IMG/VR virus record: IMGVR_UViG_3300042373_000525
Coordinates: 1-23,993 of that record
Direction: 5' to 3' (one strand)
Length of the DNA stretch: 23,993 nucleotides
From: a virus
The position numbers were made by a program, and so were the translations under genes. This document shows positions 2,559 through 23,733 of this stretch, in pieces. The notes under the pieces are model-generated. The model was not told the DNA's origin and did not search any database. It saw only the letters and a list, made by a program, of their open reading frames with translations. The stretch's first letter is position 1; each line of letters opens with the position of its first letter.

Positions 2559-3007
2559 CACTTTGTCACCCTTAGTGGGAGCGGCGACACAGATCGAAGT
2601 GGGCAGGTCTTATCCCAGCAGCTCGGCGTAGTGTCCTCATCGCCAGCGCAGACACGGCACATCAGATCAACGGCTGCGGCGTAGCGTTGCATCTTTGCGG
2701 CGATGGAGTGATCAGGCTGATCATCAATGCGCGATTTGACCCAGTACAGGTCAGCGTCGGTGACAAAGGTTCCGCCGTAGTAACGCTCTCGCGCCCAGTG
2801 GACGCTCTTACCGTATTGCGGCATCAGGTTGAACAGCGCGTTGAGTTTGACTTCTAGTTTCAGCGCCCACGCGGCACAAGCCTGTTGAAACTCTCTCTGC
2901 TCAATGGGTAGTCCGCGATTGTCACTGCTAACACGCCTCTGCCGAGCGGCGCGAGACGATAGAACGCGGTTGGACTTAGATCGATTGCTAGGCTGCGAGA
3001 TGTCCAC
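2558..3007 (-). CDS. Hypothetical protein with C-terminal cysteine cluster
   Basis: A 149-residue frame. The first 48 residues are basic and Ser/Arg-rich; the middle is helical with aromatic clusters (KSVHWARERYYGG, DADLYW), and the C-terminus has CRVC and, after 10 residues, CWDKTC, which could bind zinc. I do not recognise the family. The start is uncertain: the only start codons before the conserved-looking part are a GTG at 3007, with AGGAAGGA about 12 bases upstream, or an internal ATG at 2824. Using the GTG makes it overlap the RlpA-like gene by 148 bases, an unusually long overlap for this genome. Confidence 0.55.
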   Translation of the reverse strand: MDISQPSNRSKSNRVLSSRAARQRRVSSDNRGLPIEQREFQQACAAWALKLEVKLNALFNLMPQYGKSVHWARERYYGGTFVTDADLYWVKSRIDDQPDHSIAAKMQRYAAAVDLMCRVCAGDEDTTPSCWDKTCPLRSVSPLPLRVTK

Positions 3008-3369
3008 GGCTTTGTTATGTCCTTCCTACATCGTCCACACGAGTCGCGTGCGACCACAATCACACATCGAGTCGGATCGTCCTTCCGGCAGACGCGCAGT
3101 CTAAACGGTTTGTCGCCCCAGCGCCAGCGCGGTACCGCTGCGTACATGATCAGCTCGCCACCACGGCCGCCAGCCGCCTTGGACTTATAGGGCGAGCAGG
3201 TGTTCTTGTACCCACCCACGCAGTACTTCTCACCCTTAGGGGCGGTGCTGCCATACCAGGTCGCCACGCCGCTGACCGGCACGCCGCTTGGGGTTTCTGG
3301 CGTGGTGCTGGGTCCTGCTGAACCAGTCAGCATCGTCAGCCCTAGGAGAAACGAGACTACTTGAGCCAT
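2860..3369 (-). CDS. Secreted RlpA-like double-psi beta-barrel protein
   Basis: A 169-residue protein. Residues 1-19 (MAQVVSFLLGLTMLTGSAG) look like a short signal peptide, followed by a Pro/Ser/Thr linker and a double-psi beta-barrel from about residue 34. Matches to the RlpA/expansin-like family include ATWYG, RDSCGRC and the C-terminal AIDLSPTAFYRLAPLGRGVLAVTI, which carries the conserved aspartate near 130. RlpA-type barrels bind or cleave peptidoglycan glycan strands. No lipobox cysteine is seen, so it should be secreted, not lipid-anchored. Six cysteines could form disulfides outside the cell. The ATG at 3369 overlaps the methyltransferase stop; an upstream start would lie outside the signal peptide. 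It sits with early genes, far from the lysis cassette. Confidence 0.78.
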   Translation of the reverse strand: MAQVVSFLLGLTMLTGSAGPSTTPETPSGVPVSGVATWYGSTAPKGEKYCVGGYKNTCSPYKSKAAGGRGGELIMYAAVPRWRWGDKPFRLRVCRKDDPTRCVIVVARDSCGRCRKDITKPWTSRSLAIDLSPTAFYRLAPLGRGVLAVTIADYPLSRESFNRLVPRGR

Positions 3370-3950
3370 ACCGTCACATACCCTTCTAGGACAGGAAGGT
3401 TGCCGCGCTCCTCTAGCCACTGCCGAACGAGCGCACCCTTGCCCTCGGTCGGTGTGATGCAGTCATCCACCGCGATGATGCAGTCCGCTGGTAGTCGGTC
3501 GTAGATCGCTTGCAGCTCGCGGAGGTGATGCTCGGCCGCGTCTAGGCTGCCAGTCTTGTAGTCGAATGAGTCCAGGTACAGCAACGAGATAGACGATGCG
3601 TTGCCGAAGTGCCGGAGGAAGTCCACCGAATCGCCCACGGTGACGCGAGCGCTTGGAGCCAGAGCGCGAGCGGTGTTGACATTGTCTGGGTTGATGTCGA
3701 CTGAATAGGCGAAGCCGTCCAACTGACCTGCAAGCCATGACCAGACCACGGTGCTCTGGCCGTCGCCATTCCAGTTGTTCTCCTGCCGCGCGCAGCCGGT
3801 CTCAACGATGAGCGTGGGCTGGCTGAAGGATCGTGCGATGAGGATGTCGGCAATGAAAGTGAACGCAGACCAGCGGCGGCTCTCGCCTAGGTGTGGTCCG
3901 AAGGTCTTGGCGAACCCTGCGCGGAGCAGGGTCACATCTTCCCTACTCAC
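3357..3950 (-). CDS. Class I SAM-dependent methyltransferase-like protein
   Basis: A protein of about 197 residues with a Rossmann methyltransferase layout: LIVETGCARQENNW as motif I (SAM glycine loop variant), YSVDINPDNVNTARAL as motif II with the ribose-binding acidic residue, VTVGDSVDFLRHF, SLLYLDSFDY as the motif IV region, and CIIAVDDC. This resembles small-molecule or sugar O-methyltransferases (TylF/macrocin-type) more than DNA methylases: no NPPY or PC motif is present. It could decorate a sugar or glycan, perhaps together with the GT4 enzyme. The start is ambiguous between GTG at 3950, inside the preceding gene, and a GTG six codons later with AGGGA upstream. The 3' end overlaps the RlpA-like gene. 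Confidence 0.7.
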   Translation of the reverse strand: MSREDVTLLRAGFAKTFGPHLGESRRWSAFTFIADILIARSFSQPTLIVETGCARQENNWNGDGQSTVVWSWLAGQLDGFAYSVDINPDNVNTARALAPSARVTVGDSVDFLRHFGNASSISLLYLDSFDYKTGSLDAAEHHLRELQAIYDRLPADCIIAVDDCITPTEGKGALVRQWLEERGNLPVLEGYVTVWLK

Positions 3951-9993: not shown

Positions 9994-10242
9994 TTAGTTG
10001 CGCTTGAGGCCGTATGCGCCGTTATCACGGTCAAGAGCCTTGACCACGATGCCCAGCCCAGAGGCGAGACCGGCGGAGACGATGGTGCGGAAGTCGCCAC
10101 CTTGGATGTCCAAGAGTGGGATGCCCAGACCGAGCGCCACCGAGATGCTGACCGTGAGGAAGGTGCGGACAAAGTCCAGCGCGATCTCATCGATCTGCGT
10201 ATTCGCGGCGACATACTTGATACCTGCCCAGATTCGGCTCAT
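9994..10242 (-). CDS. Putative holin from an internal start within the endolysin frame
   Basis: The last 82 codons of the endolysin frame begin at an ATG with AAAGGA seven bases upstream. The product, starting MSRIWAGIKYVAANTQ, has two hydrophobic segments at about 24-45 and 51-70 and a basic tail, the size and layout of a class II actinophage holin. It is in the same frame as the endolysin, so the phage may make a long fusion and a short holin from one gene. That is inference from sequence alone. Confidence 0.55.
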   Translation of the reverse strand: MSRIWAGIKYVAANTQIDEIALDFVRTFLTVSISVALGLGIPLLDIQGGDFRTIVSAGLASGLGIVVKALDRDNGAYGLKRN

Positions 10243-11184
10243 ACCCTTTTCCTTTCTAGTCGCAGCGGCTGCTGCATTGATGACGGCGAGACCGTCTGCG
10301 GCGATAGCGCCCCAGTCAGCCTTGCCGATCTGATCCAACTGCGCCTGTACAGCGTCAGGTGTCTTAGTACCCTCTGCCACCTTTCGTGGCTCTGCGTGGC
10401 TCCTAGGTGCCTGTACGGCGGTTTTAGGAGCAGGTGCTGGCGTAGCTGCCGCAGGCACGACTGACGCTTCCTTCTTTCCTTCTGTCTGACGGTCGTCTGA
10501 TTTCGTCAGACTCAGGTCAGACTTCGTCACTGGAGCCGCGACCTTTGCTGGGTGCGTGACGATGAGGAGCGCCTTGTAGTCAGCCTTCAACTTGCCAGCC
10601 TTGACCTTGCTGTTGGCGATTTGGCGGAGCTGCGCCTCCGTTACCGGCACGCCATGCTTCTCAGCGGCGACCTTCTCGTCGCGCGTCGGACACGCCCACT
10701 GCCAGCCGTGATCTTCACACCACCCAGCGCTGGTCATGTGGCCGTAGCCAGCCGCGATCTTGGCAGGCTGGTGCTTGCTCCACCACTTGTGCCAGCGGTC
10801 GTGCCACGCGCTGATCTTTACGCCTGCTGGGTAATCCACTGCCTGCTGTACCCAGACCATGAGCGCAGCGCCGCCCTTAGCGGCTGCGACCGCGTCCTCC
10901 CATGACTTTGCATATCGAGCCTTGCCGCCGAAGTGCGCGATGACCTTGACGGCTTCAGCGAGAGAGCCGCCATTGTCGGACTTGCCCTGCACATCCTTGC
11001 GACCTGTGATCTTCTTCATGGCGATCACTGCATCTGCGGCGGTCGGAGATACTGCACCGCCGCTACTCCAGCCGATAACTGCCGCGCAGCTACTCCAGGT
11101 GCAGTCATCAAGGATCTGCTTTGCGCCCTTCTGCTGCGCCTCTGAATCGCTATAGAGCTGTGAGGCAACGCGGTACAGAGGCAT
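9994..11184 (-). CDS. Endolysin-like C39-type cysteine peptidase fused to a holin-like domain
   Basis: A 396-residue protein in three parts. Residues 1 to about 170 resemble a C39-like cysteine peptidase: DDCTWSSCAA with nucleophile candidate C28, and GYGHMTSAGW with H149. Similar domains occur in actinophage lysins and cut peptidoglycan peptides. Residues about 215-275 are a Pro/Ala/Lys linker; I see no standard wall-binding domain. Residues 315-396 form a holin-like membrane domain (DFVRTFLTVSISVALGLGIP, then TIVSAGLASGLGIVVKAL) with a charged tail. The ATG at 11184 has AGGAG eight bases upstream and a one-base overlap with the previous stop. If made as one chain it would be membrane-tethered. 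Confidence 0.68.
   Translation of the reverse strand: MPLYRVASQLYSDSEAQQKGAKQILDDCTWSSCAAVIGWSSGGAVSPTAADAVIAMKKITGRKDVQGKSDNGGSLAEAVKVIAHFGGKARYAKSWEDAVAAAKGGAALMVWVQQAVDYPAGVKISAWHDRWHKWWSKHQPAKIAAGYGHMTSAGWCEDHGWQWACPTRDEKVAAEKHGVPVTEAQLRQIANSKVKAGKLKADYKALLIVTHPAKVAAPVTKSDLSLTKSDDRQTEGKKEASVVPAAATPAPAPKTAVQAPRSHAEPRKVAEGTKTPDAVQAQLDQIGKADWGAIAADGLAVINAAAAATRKEKGMSRIWAGIKYVAANTQIDEIALDFVRTFLTVSISVALGLGIPLLDIQGGDFRTIVSAGLASGLGIVVKALDRDNGAYGLKRN
10243..10257 (-). promoter_or_regulatory. Internal ribosome binding site inside the endolysin gene
   Basis: Reading leftward, AGAAAGGAAAAGGGT directly precedes the internal ATG. It encodes TRKEKG in the fusion, so the purine-rich run could be coding by chance, but the spacing of AGGA to ATG is ideal and the run closely resembles the capsid gene's site. 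Confidence 0.55.
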
Positions 11185-11435
11185 TACGCGTTCTCCTGCT
11201 TGATCAGCACCGCGAGTGCGCGACCGGCTGCGTCGTAGTCCAGAGCAGCGCTGACTGGGTGCCCAGCCGTCACGCCGACGGCGTACTCTTTGCCGTCGTT
11301 CTCAATGCGCCAGAGCGTGCCACCGAAGGCGGTGTGATTGTCGTTCGGTACGACAGCAACCCACTCCATCGGCGCGACATCAACGCGCGTCCAGCCCTGT
11401 AGGTGTACCTGCTCGATGTGGTCTGTGTGTGCCAT
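11184..11435 (-). CDS. Hypothetical small protein next to the endolysin
   Basis: An 83-residue soluble protein with a beta-rich middle (WVAVVPNDNHTAFGGTLWRI, EYAVGVT) and a C-terminal helix (YDAAGRALAVLIKQENA). No family recognised. The ATG at 11435 overlaps the upstream stop by one base (TGATG) with GGAGGG just before it, so I prefer it to a GTG at 11450. The stop overlaps the endolysin ATG, so it is made together with the lysis proteins. Confidence 0.6.
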   Translation of the reverse strand: MAHTDHIEQVHLQGWTRVDVAPMEWVAVVPNDNHTAFGGTLWRIENDGKEYAVGVTAGHPVSAALDYDAAGRALAVLIKQENA

Positions 11436-11608
11436 CAACCCTCCATCCACCGTAGTGGTCCAGTCAGTAGCCAGATCAGCGTGAGACCGCCGAAGAGTGC
11501 GGCCATCGTGGACTGCGTGTCGCCCTCTGGCAGAACGACCACAGCGAAGAGCAAGCCTAGAATCGTCCAGGCTCCACCGACGAGATCAACGATGATGCGC
11601 TTGATCAC
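11435..11608 (-). CDS. 57-residue two-helix membrane protein, holin candidate
   Basis: A GTG start with a GTGA overlap on the PA14 gene opens a 57-residue frame with two hydrophobic segments: about residues 8-26 (LVGGAWTILGLLFAVVVL) and about 35-50 (MAAFLFGG-like region to LIWLLTG), separated by an acidic turn (PEGDTQ). The N-terminus is basic (IKRI). Size, topology and position beside the endolysin fit a small holin or antiholin. Every junction is coupled to its neighbours. Confidence 0.6.
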   Translation of the reverse strand: MIKRIIVDLVGGAWTILGLLFAVVVLPEGDTQSTMAALFGGLTLIWLLTGPLRWMEG

Positions 11609-12747
11609 TTGGTCACCTTTCTTGCCGCAGCTGCAGCGCTAGATGCAGCAGCCACAGCAGCACTTGCCACCTGGCTGATCACGATTGCCACAGCAACCGG
11701 CGCAGCCTTCTCTTTCTCGGCAGGTGAGAGATCCTTGCCTAGGTTGGTAATCGCTTCGATCGCCTGCGTGACGGTCTCAGCGACAGCAGCAACAGCCTCA
11801 CCAACTGCCGCAACCGTTTGCTCCGCAATGTTATCTGGTGACGGTGTCGGTTCAGGTGTTGGCTCCACGCTCGGCGCTACGGATGGTGAGTCAGTAGGTA
11901 CAGGAGTGGGATCAGGAGTAGCGGACTCACTCGCACTAGGTTCTGGCGTAGGGTCAACCGTGGGCGACGGCTTGGGTGTGGGAGTCGGTGATGGGATCGG
12001 CGATGGTTGGACACTTGGCACCTCACTTGGTGTTGGTTCTACAGATGGTGACGGCTCTGGCGTCGGTGTTGGTGATGGCTCCACAGATGGCGTAGGATCT
12101 GGCGATGGAGATTCTGAAGGACTTGGTTCTGGCGTTGGCTCAACAGATGGCTCTTGGCTTGGTTCTGGTGACGGTGTTGGAGTGGGCGCTGGCAGAGCGC
12201 TCGTAGTCAGCCACGCAGCCGGTACGACACCGTAGCCAAGCGTTGGTGCGCCGAACCAGAGACGCGCACACGCGCCGCCACCCCACTCAAACATCCAGAT
12301 GTCGAGCGCATAGGACTGACCTGCGACGAGCTGCGAGTAGCCCTCATTCGGTCCAGACCAGTGACCGCCGCAGCCGTGGAAGTTCCAGTCATCAAGCGTC
12401 AGCACGCCGTCTAGCGTCATGTACCAGCCATCGTCTGACCAGTTGAGGAACTCCCACTGGCCGCTCTCTGGCACGGTCAGCCAGCCTGTGAAGTGGACCA
12501 TGAACATATCGGCAGGGCAGCCCTCTGCGGCAGGTGCGCCACCCCAATCAAAGTCGATCATTGAGACCACACCAGAGAAACAGACTGGCTGTGTGGGTGG
12601 CTCTTGCCACGGACCGAGGCCGAGCATCACGCCGTCGTAGACCGTCATCGTCACGCCCTGCTGCGGCAGTTCCTCAGCGCGCACGATGGGCAGGAAGATG
12701 AGCGTGCTGAAGATGATCCCCAGAAGTGGGAACGCGAGCCGCCTCAC
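11605..12747 (-). CDS. Exported PA14-domain protein with proline-rich spacer and hydrophobic C-terminus
   Basis: A 380-residue protein. Residues 1-24 are a signal peptide (MRRLAFPLLG..., cleavage after IVRA). Residues about 31-183 look like a PA14 carbohydrate-binding beta domain, with FTGWLTVPESGQWEFLNWSDDGWYMTLDG matching its hallmark SG-x-Y/W-x-F and SDDG strand pair; several cysteines could form disulfides. Residues 185-306 are a Pro/Ser/Thr/Glu spacer, and residues about 345-375 are an Ala/Val-rich segment that may be a membrane anchor. It would place a glycan-binding head outside the membrane, spanning the wall. The GTG start overlaps the upstream stop (GTGA). Superinfection exclusion or a lysis aid are guesses. 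Confidence 0.75.
   Translation of the reverse strand: MRRLAFPLLGIIFSTLIFLPIVRAEELPQQGVTMTVYDGVMLGLGPWQEPPTQPVCFSGVVSMIDFDWGGAPAAEGCPADMFMVHFTGWLTVPESGQWEFLNWSDDGWYMTLDGVLTLDDWNFHGCGGHWSGPNEGYSQLVAGQSYALDIWMFEWGGGACARLWFGAPTLGYGVVPAAWLTTSALPAPTPTPSPEPSQEPSVEPTPEPSPSESPSPDPTPSVEPSPTPTPEPSPSVEPTPSEVPSVQPSPIPSPTPTPKPSPTVDPTPEPSASESATPDPTPVPTDSPSVAPSVEPTPEPTPSPDNIAEQTVAAVGEAVAAVAETVTQAIEAITNLGKDLSPAEKEKAAPVAVAIVISQVASAAVAAASSAAAAARKVTK
11830..12192 (-). repeat. Low-complexity proline-rich coding repeat
   Basis: About 120 codons encode irregular tandem units of SVEPTPEPSPS type. At DNA level, GGCTC(C/A)AC-AGATGG-like blocks recur on the plus strand. The region is the stalk of the PA14 protein and is prone to unequal recombination, so length may vary between related phages. 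Confidence 0.8.
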
Positions 12748-22527: not shown

Positions 22528-23733
22528 CTAGAGTGCTTCACCTTCTGCCGATGCCAAGGTGAGCATTGCCATAGCGACGGATGGGTCAATGACCTTCTCC
22601 TGCTTTGGTGCCAACTTGGAACGGACAGCATCAATGACAGCCACTTCCTCGGCGGACAGTTCGCGTCCAGCCTTGACTGCTTCAAGTGTGGCGACCAGCG
22701 CCTCAGCCTCTACGCCGATCTTTGGCGCGGTAACCTGGCGGATTGCCGTGAGACCAAGGGTCGCAGGGTAGGCAGGGGTCTGGCCACCGGCAGCAAGGAT
22801 GCTTACCTCAAACAGGTTGGCTTCCTTGATCGTGCGGCTGTTGCCATCCCAGGCATCCTGCGTCATCTGGAATCCAAATGACATTCCAGCGGCTGCGGCC
22901 TCGTGCGTCAGCATCGAGATGACCTTGGCTGCGTCTGGGTCGGCTGGGTCTAGCTTCGCCTCAACGCGCAGACCAGTCTCGTCCTCAGTCAACTGAAGGC
23001 GGCCGCTCGCGGTCGTGGCAAGGGCGCGCGCCTCGTCGTGACCAAACAGGAAGGCAATAATCTTCTGCCCTGCGGCAGCGCGAGAGAGTGAACGCTTGAA
23101 TGCTCCAGGCGCAATGCGCTCCTCGAACGGCAAGCCCTCAGACGCGCTGTTCCAGACAGACGCGTAGCCGGTAAAGGTTCGCTGTCCGTCAGCGTCAGCC
23201 TCGGCAAGACGGTACTCGCCGATTGGTAGCGAGCGAACTTCTTTCTCTTTCAAGTCAATCACCTCTGCTGTGTCGCCCACTGCTGAGCGATCTTCTTCTG
23301 ATGGTAGGGGCGCAGGTTGATCTTCCGAGTCATTATCCACAGCCTGATCGGCAAGGTATTCCTCTGGCGAGTACGCCTCAATCTCTAGGCGGCGAGCCAT
23401 CTCGCGCACCTCTGCGTCATTGTCAATGGCGTACTGGAGTTGCATTCCGTACTGCTCCTTGAGCAGGCCGTACTTGTACTCCTTGAATGCCAAGCCGGTA
23501 GCGAATGGCGTGCCGTCAAAGTCATTGAGGTGTACCTCTTCAACGCCAGCCAATTTGTATTCCTGAAGCCAAGCGCGCGTCTCCTCAAGTCGATCAATGC
23601 TGCGAGCAGAGACCACGATGATCTGGGTTTGGCTGTCCATTACCTTGCCGTTGAGGGCATTAATGAGCGGCTGGTTTGGTTGCTCGTTCTCTAGAACTAG
23701 CGTGCCGTCTAGGTCAACGATGGTGTAGGTCAT
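22528..23733 (-). CDS. Fusion of HAD-like phosphatase domain and HK97 prohead protease (S78)
   Basis: A 401-residue protein. Residues 1 to about 125 hold HAD motifs: TIVDLDGTLV (D7, D9), IVVSARS (S42), lysines at 84-87 and YAIDNDAEV (D104, D106). Residues about 126-165 are an acidic linker. From about 165, a prohead protease domain has the three expected active-site regions: FLFGHDEA (H232), AAGMSFGFQM (S285) and LFEVSIL (E309). The protease cuts the capsid scaffold segment during head maturation. S78 proteases are often near 200 residues; here the HAD part nearly doubles the length. An ATGA overlap with portal sets the start. The HAD role is unknown; the substrate could be a nucleotide or phosphorylated end. 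Confidence 0.85.
   Translation of the reverse strand: MTYTIVDLDGTLVLENEQPNQPLINALNGKVMDSQTQIIVVSARSIDRLEETRAWLQEYKLAGVEEVHLNDFDGTPFATGLAFKEYKYGLLKEQYGMQLQYAIDNDAEVREMARRLEIEAYSPEEYLADQAVDNDSEDQPAPLPSEEDRSAVGDTAEVIDLKEKEVRSLPIGEYRLAEADADGQRTFTGYASVWNSASEGLPFEERIAPGAFKRSLSRAAAGQKIIAFLFGHDEARALATTASGRLQLTEDETGLRVEAKLDPADPDAAKVISMLTHEAAAAGMSFGFQMTQDAWDGNSRTIKEANLFEVSILAAGGQTPAYPATLGLTAIRQVTAPKIGVEAEALVATLEAVKAGRELSAEEVAVIDAVRSKLAPKQEKVIDPSVAMAMLTLASAEGEAL

Follow-up and report, generated by a model that had tools for sequence, protein, structure and literature searches.

Endolysin genes that yield two polypeptides through an internal translation start have been described (Pinto et al. 2022, PMC9430671), and examples include CTP1L (PMC4777826), Ply2638A (PMC12203907), and the lysA gene of Ms6 (PMC3111421). 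In these genes, two in-frame open reading frames (ORFs) end at one stop codon, and an internal Shine-Dalgarno (SD) sequence and start codon allow a C-terminal product to be made in addition to the full-length endolysin. This shorter polypeptide consists either of a cell-wall-binding domain or of an enzymatic and a binding domain together. A holin and an endolysin are also joined in one chain in a natural fusion of the TpeE family from Clostridium sporogenes (WP_163247266.1), in which an N-terminal holin with a single transmembrane (TM) segment is followed by the endolysin (PMC9527704). No internal start was reported for that fusion (PMC9527704). A further possible fusion, of a holin with a major capsid protein, has been described in a Gordonia phage (PMC9671378). 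No report of a holin embedded in an endolysin gene came up in the literature searched, outside which most subscription papers lay, and we do not claim priority.

Here, we analyzed a 23,993-nucleotide stretch of viral DNA (the window; positions 1 to 23,993 of IMG/VR record IMGVR_UViG_3300042373_000525) in which a gene from a freshwater phage gene family joins a putative cell wall peptidase, a linker, and a holin-like membrane domain in one frame. As in the two-polypeptide endolysins, the C-terminal part has a start of its own. The features of the locus are listed in Table 1.

Table 1. Positions of the lysis gene, its parts, and the neighboring ORFs in the window
Feature	Position	Strand	Basis
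Fusion ORF, 396 aa (peptidase, linker, and membrane domain)	9994..11184	-	Open frame; in-frame in 126 distinct relatives
SD sequence AGGAG of the full-length product, 8-nt spacer	11193..11197	-	Sequence
Papain/C39-like cysteine peptidase domain, residues 4-212	10549..11175	-	AlphaFold2 pLDDT 90.4; Foldseek matches
Putative catalytic Cys28, motif QILDDC	11101..11103	-	Invariant in 59 sequences
Putative catalytic His149	10738..10740	-	Invariant in 59 sequences
Putative third catalytic residue Asp169	10678..10680	-	D in 53/59, N in 6/59
Pro/Ala/Lys-rich linker, then predicted helices, residues 217-314	10243..10536	-	pLDDT <50 at 217-276; helices 277-308
Linker DNA with the gene's strongest synonymous conservation, residues 251-276	10357..10437	-	Synonymous conservation; module comparison
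Internal SD sequence AGAAAGGA, 7-nt spacer	10250..10257	-	-10.2 kcal/mol to ACCUCCUUUCU
Internal start codon ATG, residue 315	10240..10242	-	ATG/GTG at or near this column in most relatives
Embedded holin-like product, 82 aa	9994..10242	-	Two predicted helices; separate gene in L125, L214, L225
88-aa ORF	11184..11450	-	Present in most relatives
57-aa two-TM ORF, GTG start; second holin/antiholin candidate	11435..11608	-	Upstream of the fusion in relatives

A peptidase and a membrane domain share one open frame

A sequence-only reading of this DNA had proposed an in-frame endolysin-holin-like fusion at 9994-11184, and we confirmed that the region is a single open minus-strand frame of 396 codons. 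The ATG that starts the full-length product is preceded by AGGAG and shares one base with the stop codon of the 88-aa ORF (TAATG). Scans of IMG/VR recovered 181 related stretches for the whole protein, 407 for the membrane domain, and 275 for the peptidase, which left 126 distinct fused in-frame ORFs once identical ones were removed. Because all 126 are fused in frame with no stop between the halves, we rejected a sequencing error as the origin of the fusion. Relatives with two separate genes, which that reading had named as a sign of such an error, are present but form a minority alternative state and do not indicate one.

Neither half matched a known family in Pfam, PHROGs, or NCBIfam or, by sequence, an entry in the PDB, and tblastn of the family against isolate phages gave nothing convincing. 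Since the family is absent from the isolate phages searched and matches no profile, both of its functions would go unrecognized in phage annotation.

The N-terminal half is predicted to be a papain-like peptidase

We modeled the N-terminal half in AlphaFold2 with 59 relatives (mean pLDDT, 90.4), and the predicted fold is that of the C39/papain-like cysteine peptidases. The closest solved structure found with Foldseek was the pseudomurein endoisopeptidase PeiR (8z4h; E value, 7.5e-4), and other matches were staphopain (~1e-3), the C39-like peptidase 3erv (3e-3), and the peptidase domain of PCAT1 (7e-3). The predicted viral proteins that matched include some named endolysin or lysozyme. Cys28, His149, and the Asp or Asn at position 169 fit, as expected, a putative papain-like Cys-His-Asp/Asn set. 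The peptidase domains of PeiR, 3erv, PCAT1, and ComA share this fold and residue set with the window peptidase, but their identity to it is only ~10 to 12%, and the window peptidase has no Pfam family match. The earlier label "C39-type" holds for the predicted fold and the putative catalytic residues but finds no counterpart in Pfam, whose C39 models matched none of 23 family members, nor the DDCGPSS variant L126.

Four relatives (L126, L128, L135, and L136) carry DDCGPSS or DDCGASS in place of DDCTWSS and are nearer to the classical C39/papain motif. In another (L072:905-2111), the peptidase frame is broken near its start into two frames, probably by a frameshift or an assembly error. Because no Amidase_2, CHAP, M23, or NLPC_P60 domain was detected in seven records of up to 41 kb (the window included; some possibly incomplete), the fused peptidase is the main endolysin candidate.

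The C-terminal domain resembles a small two-TM holin

In a model of the full chain, helices of membrane length were predicted at residues 331-352 and 362-384, with low confidence in the C-terminal 82 residues. A hydropathy scan with a strict threshold flagged only the first helix, as one segment, in the window protein, and a relaxed threshold gave two segments in its close relatives. By these predictions, the 82-aa product is a small protein with two membrane helices, as expected of a two-TM holin. The fused membrane domain matched no holin profile or described holin family in Pfam, PHROGs, or NCBIfam. Based on its topology, its context, and the stand-alone relatives, we infer that the domain is a holin; the earlier description as "holin-like" agrees with these three lines of evidence but not with a profile match.

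The sequence-only reading overlooked a second holin candidate just upstream of the fusion. This 57-aa two-TM ORF overlaps the stop codon of the adjacent PA14-domain gene, and it lies directly upstream of the fusion in 105 of the 112 testable loci. Its product has no holin profile match either and could be the holin or a partner of the holin, which is the main uncertainty about function. In three relatives without the 57-aa gene (L197, L229, and L294), the peptidase is preceded by a short ORF that is reminiscent of XhlA in combining a coiled-coil-like stretch with a single TM segment. The two of these short ORFs that were searched had no Pfam match.

The membrane domain carries a recurrent internal start

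The claim of an internal ATG at 10242 with a good SD sequence was also borne out: the motif AGAAAGGA lies at a 7-nt spacing, and its pairing with the extended anti-SD sequence ACCUCCUUUCU, against which we scored start strength, yields -10.2 kcal/mol. This value is within the range of the other gene starts in the window, and the ATG is the strongest internal in-frame ATG found there, save one at 2368 that is probably the true start of another gene. An equally strong start was present in 13 (0.8%) of 1,712 background segments of 13 codons, which were taken from the remaining genes of the window and of two related contigs. The internal SD sequence is unpaired in the predicted RNA fold. We rejected pure chance as the source of the signal based on the background count and on its recurrence in relatives.

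At the boundary between peptidase and membrane domain, the start is the strongest of ~16 in-frame internal starts per ORF in 117 of 126 ORFs (~93%), a proportion that is not a probability, since related sequences are not independent. Lineages build this start with differing codons, phases, and positions. The signal reads AGA AAG GAA AAG GGT ATG in the window's group, ACG AAA GGA in another phase in L065-L067, and AAG GAG with ATG or GTG in L058-L064, and the ATG lies three codons later in L076 and its allies. The idea that every relative has its start in the same column proved wrong: 20 ORFs have none at the usual column and instead have a stronger start 47 codons upstream, composed of AAGGAGGTTCCA-ATG/GTG or AGAGAGGAGTTCT-ATG with a near-perfect SD sequence (AAGGAGGT), which would give a longer membrane product. 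Only a weak boundary signal was found in one small group (L168, L170, L177, L180, L197, and L212).

A codon-resampling null gave no significant result (median p, ~0.2 at the window-type site and 0.56 at the upstream site), as the same amino acids, when recoded, often give an equally good SD sequence. We also found no synonymous constraint at the internal SD sequence beyond the gene average. The case for the internal start rests on its recurrence in different forms and on split versions of the gene, not on codon-level constraint.

Split genes and exchange of membrane modules

The sequence-only reading had suggested a search for the same fusion or for split genes among relatives, and this recovered both: beside the 126 distinct fused ORFs, 7 contigs encode the membrane domain in a gene of its own, with a start of the same type. 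In L125/L213, L214, and L225, the peptidase stop is followed by ~20 nt with a AGAAAGGA- or CGAAAGGA-type site and then by a GTG-started membrane protein. In L123, L216/L217, and L274, the GTG that starts a linker-plus-membrane gene overlaps the peptidase stop (GTGA), and this gene keeps its own internal SD sequence and ATG. The split state maps to at least two places inside the fused family on the peptidase tree and requires three changes.

The peptidase and membrane modules reassort. L043 and L267 are 97% identical in the peptidase and 47% in the membrane domain, the corresponding values for L076 and L165 are 100% and 64%, and the window and L040 are 68% identical in the peptidase and 98% in the membrane domain; over all pairs, the two identities have a correlation of only 0.13. 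Given this reassortment, the internal start seems to move together with the membrane module. The membrane-domain tree required 8 changes of start type and the peptidase tree 10, a small difference between poorly resolved trees.

In the linker DNA at 10357-10437 (minus strand), synonymous sites are almost completely conserved between phages with different flanking modules. RNA structure gained no support as the reason (fold z-score, -1.1) and was rejected in favor of a recombination joint, which fits better. In the simplest reading of the sequences, this stretch is probably the joint at which membrane modules recombine, and other causes are possible.

A probable two-product lysis gene and competing explanations

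We consider it fairly probable that the locus is a two-product lysis gene that encodes a holin-tethered endolysin and a free holin. The earlier proposal of a membrane-tethered lysin and a free holin from one gene is supported at the sequence level by the boundary start in ~93% of the fused ORFs, the split genes, and the module reassortment. Translation from 11184 would produce a cell wall cysteine peptidase, a flexible linker, and a two-TM holin-like domain in one chain, and the internal ATG at 10242 on the same mRNA would produce the 82-aa holin-like protein alone. The free short form would accumulate in the membrane, where the long form would co-assemble with it through its own identical membrane domain while staying on the cytoplasmic side, and opening of the holin assembly would deliver the tethered peptidase to the wall where the hole has formed. 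Synthesis of both products, a holin role for the short form, and co-assembly of the long and short forms are all inferred, the last by likeness to internal-start endolysins in which the short product associates with the full-length one (PMC9430671, PMC4777826, and PMC12203907). More speculatively, the endolysin might be built into the hole itself, with full-length chains that copolymerize with the free holin and position the tethered peptidase and with the product ratio setting the timing. If so, a single gene would encode a lysis machine, and phages would exchange its membrane modules together with their own start signal.

The fusion may instead be incidental, a stop codon between two genes having been lost, with the linker cut by a host protease or the tail tolerated so that the parts act as two ordinary proteins. 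On the peptidase tree, the split genes form two or more separate groups nested in the fused family, which indicates that the state changes easily, and the linker is long, Pro/Ala-rich, and predicted to be disordered, as such an origin would allow. However, fusion is the dominant state (126 distinct ORFs, compared with 7 split contigs), and many module exchanges have left the frame intact, so that we regard an incidental fusion as conceivable but doubtful. The codon-level results bear on a different reading, in which only the long chain is made and relevant, the SD-like sequence is a by-product of the residues KEKG, and the chain combines export with wall cutting. The codon-resampling tests were not significant, the internal SD sequence lacks synonymous constraint, and a natural single-chain holin-endolysin fusion is known from C. 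sporogenes (PMC9527704), all of which agree with a single product. Relatives with separate holin genes nevertheless have the same kind of start, one group has relocated its start 47 codons upstream with a near-perfect SD sequence, the SD sequence occurs in different codon phases, and the start is carried along in module exchange, which together make this reading quite improbable.

The 57-aa protein (11435-11608) raises the question of which product is the holin. It could be the true holin and the fused membrane domain an anchor or regulator, such as an antiholin, in which case the internal start would make a free regulator that competes with or tunes the 57-aa protein. Its position directly upstream of the fusion in nearly all testable loci is consistent with this, as are the absence of a holin profile match for the fused domain and the frequent presence of at least two holin-like proteins per cassette in actinobacterial phages (PMC9671378; PMC13056207). 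But the 57-aa protein is equally without a profile match, whereas the fused domain has the size and two-TM layout of a small holin and is a separate gene in some relatives, and we consider a regulatory role unlikely.

Host leads and other genes

Two weak leads bear on the host. Over about half its length, the capsid protein shares 33% identity with its counterpart in Pontimonas phage phiPsal1, the lysis genes of which are unrelated to those of the window, and a 6-kb contig that carries one of the relatives was binned as Rhodobacteraceae. The gene immediately preceding the lysis genes encodes a PA14-domain protein (11605-12747, minus strand; E value, 3e-11) that has a hydrophobic N terminus, a long Pro/Ser/Thr repeat stretch, and a hydrophobic C terminus. 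Away from the lysis genes, a possible second wall-active protein is encoded at 2860-3420 (minus strand): a DPBB (lytic transglycolase-like) protein, just below the Pfam cutoff, whose N-terminal stretch is hydrophobic. Another fusion, at 22528-23733 (minus strand), joins a weakly matched N-terminal HAD-phosphatase-like part (E value, ~0.01) to a prohead protease (Peptidase_S78; E value, 6e-32).

Comparison with known fusions and internal-start endolysins

The Gordonia phage protein resembles the window gene in that a holin-like domain is in frame with another phage protein, but its partner is the capsid and not an endolysin. In the C. sporogenes fusion, as in the window gene, a holin or holin-like part and an endolysin share one chain. 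Yet the window gene does not have an N-terminal TpeE-like holin followed by an endolysin: its order is reversed, its membrane part has two predicted helices, and that part has its own start. With the two-polypeptide endolysins, the gene shares, as judged from its sequence, two in-frame ORFs with one stop codon, an in-frame internal start, and an internal ribosome-binding site, from which a C-terminal product would be made beside the full-length endolysin. It has no recognizable wall-binding domain, and its C-terminal product is a hydrophobic, two-helix protein that matches nothing in Pfam, PHROGs, or NCBIfam. Because its short product is predicted to be a membrane protein and not a wall-binding domain, we place the gene as a variant, not a strict member, of this class.

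In the two-product reading that we favor, one ORF would supply both the enzyme and the membrane protein for its release. By comparing the naturally fused, overlapping, and split versions, one could readily assess the contribution of covalent tethering to lysis. Wall-binding and enzymatic fragments are the products known from internal starts in endolysin genes, and this family would add a holin to these.
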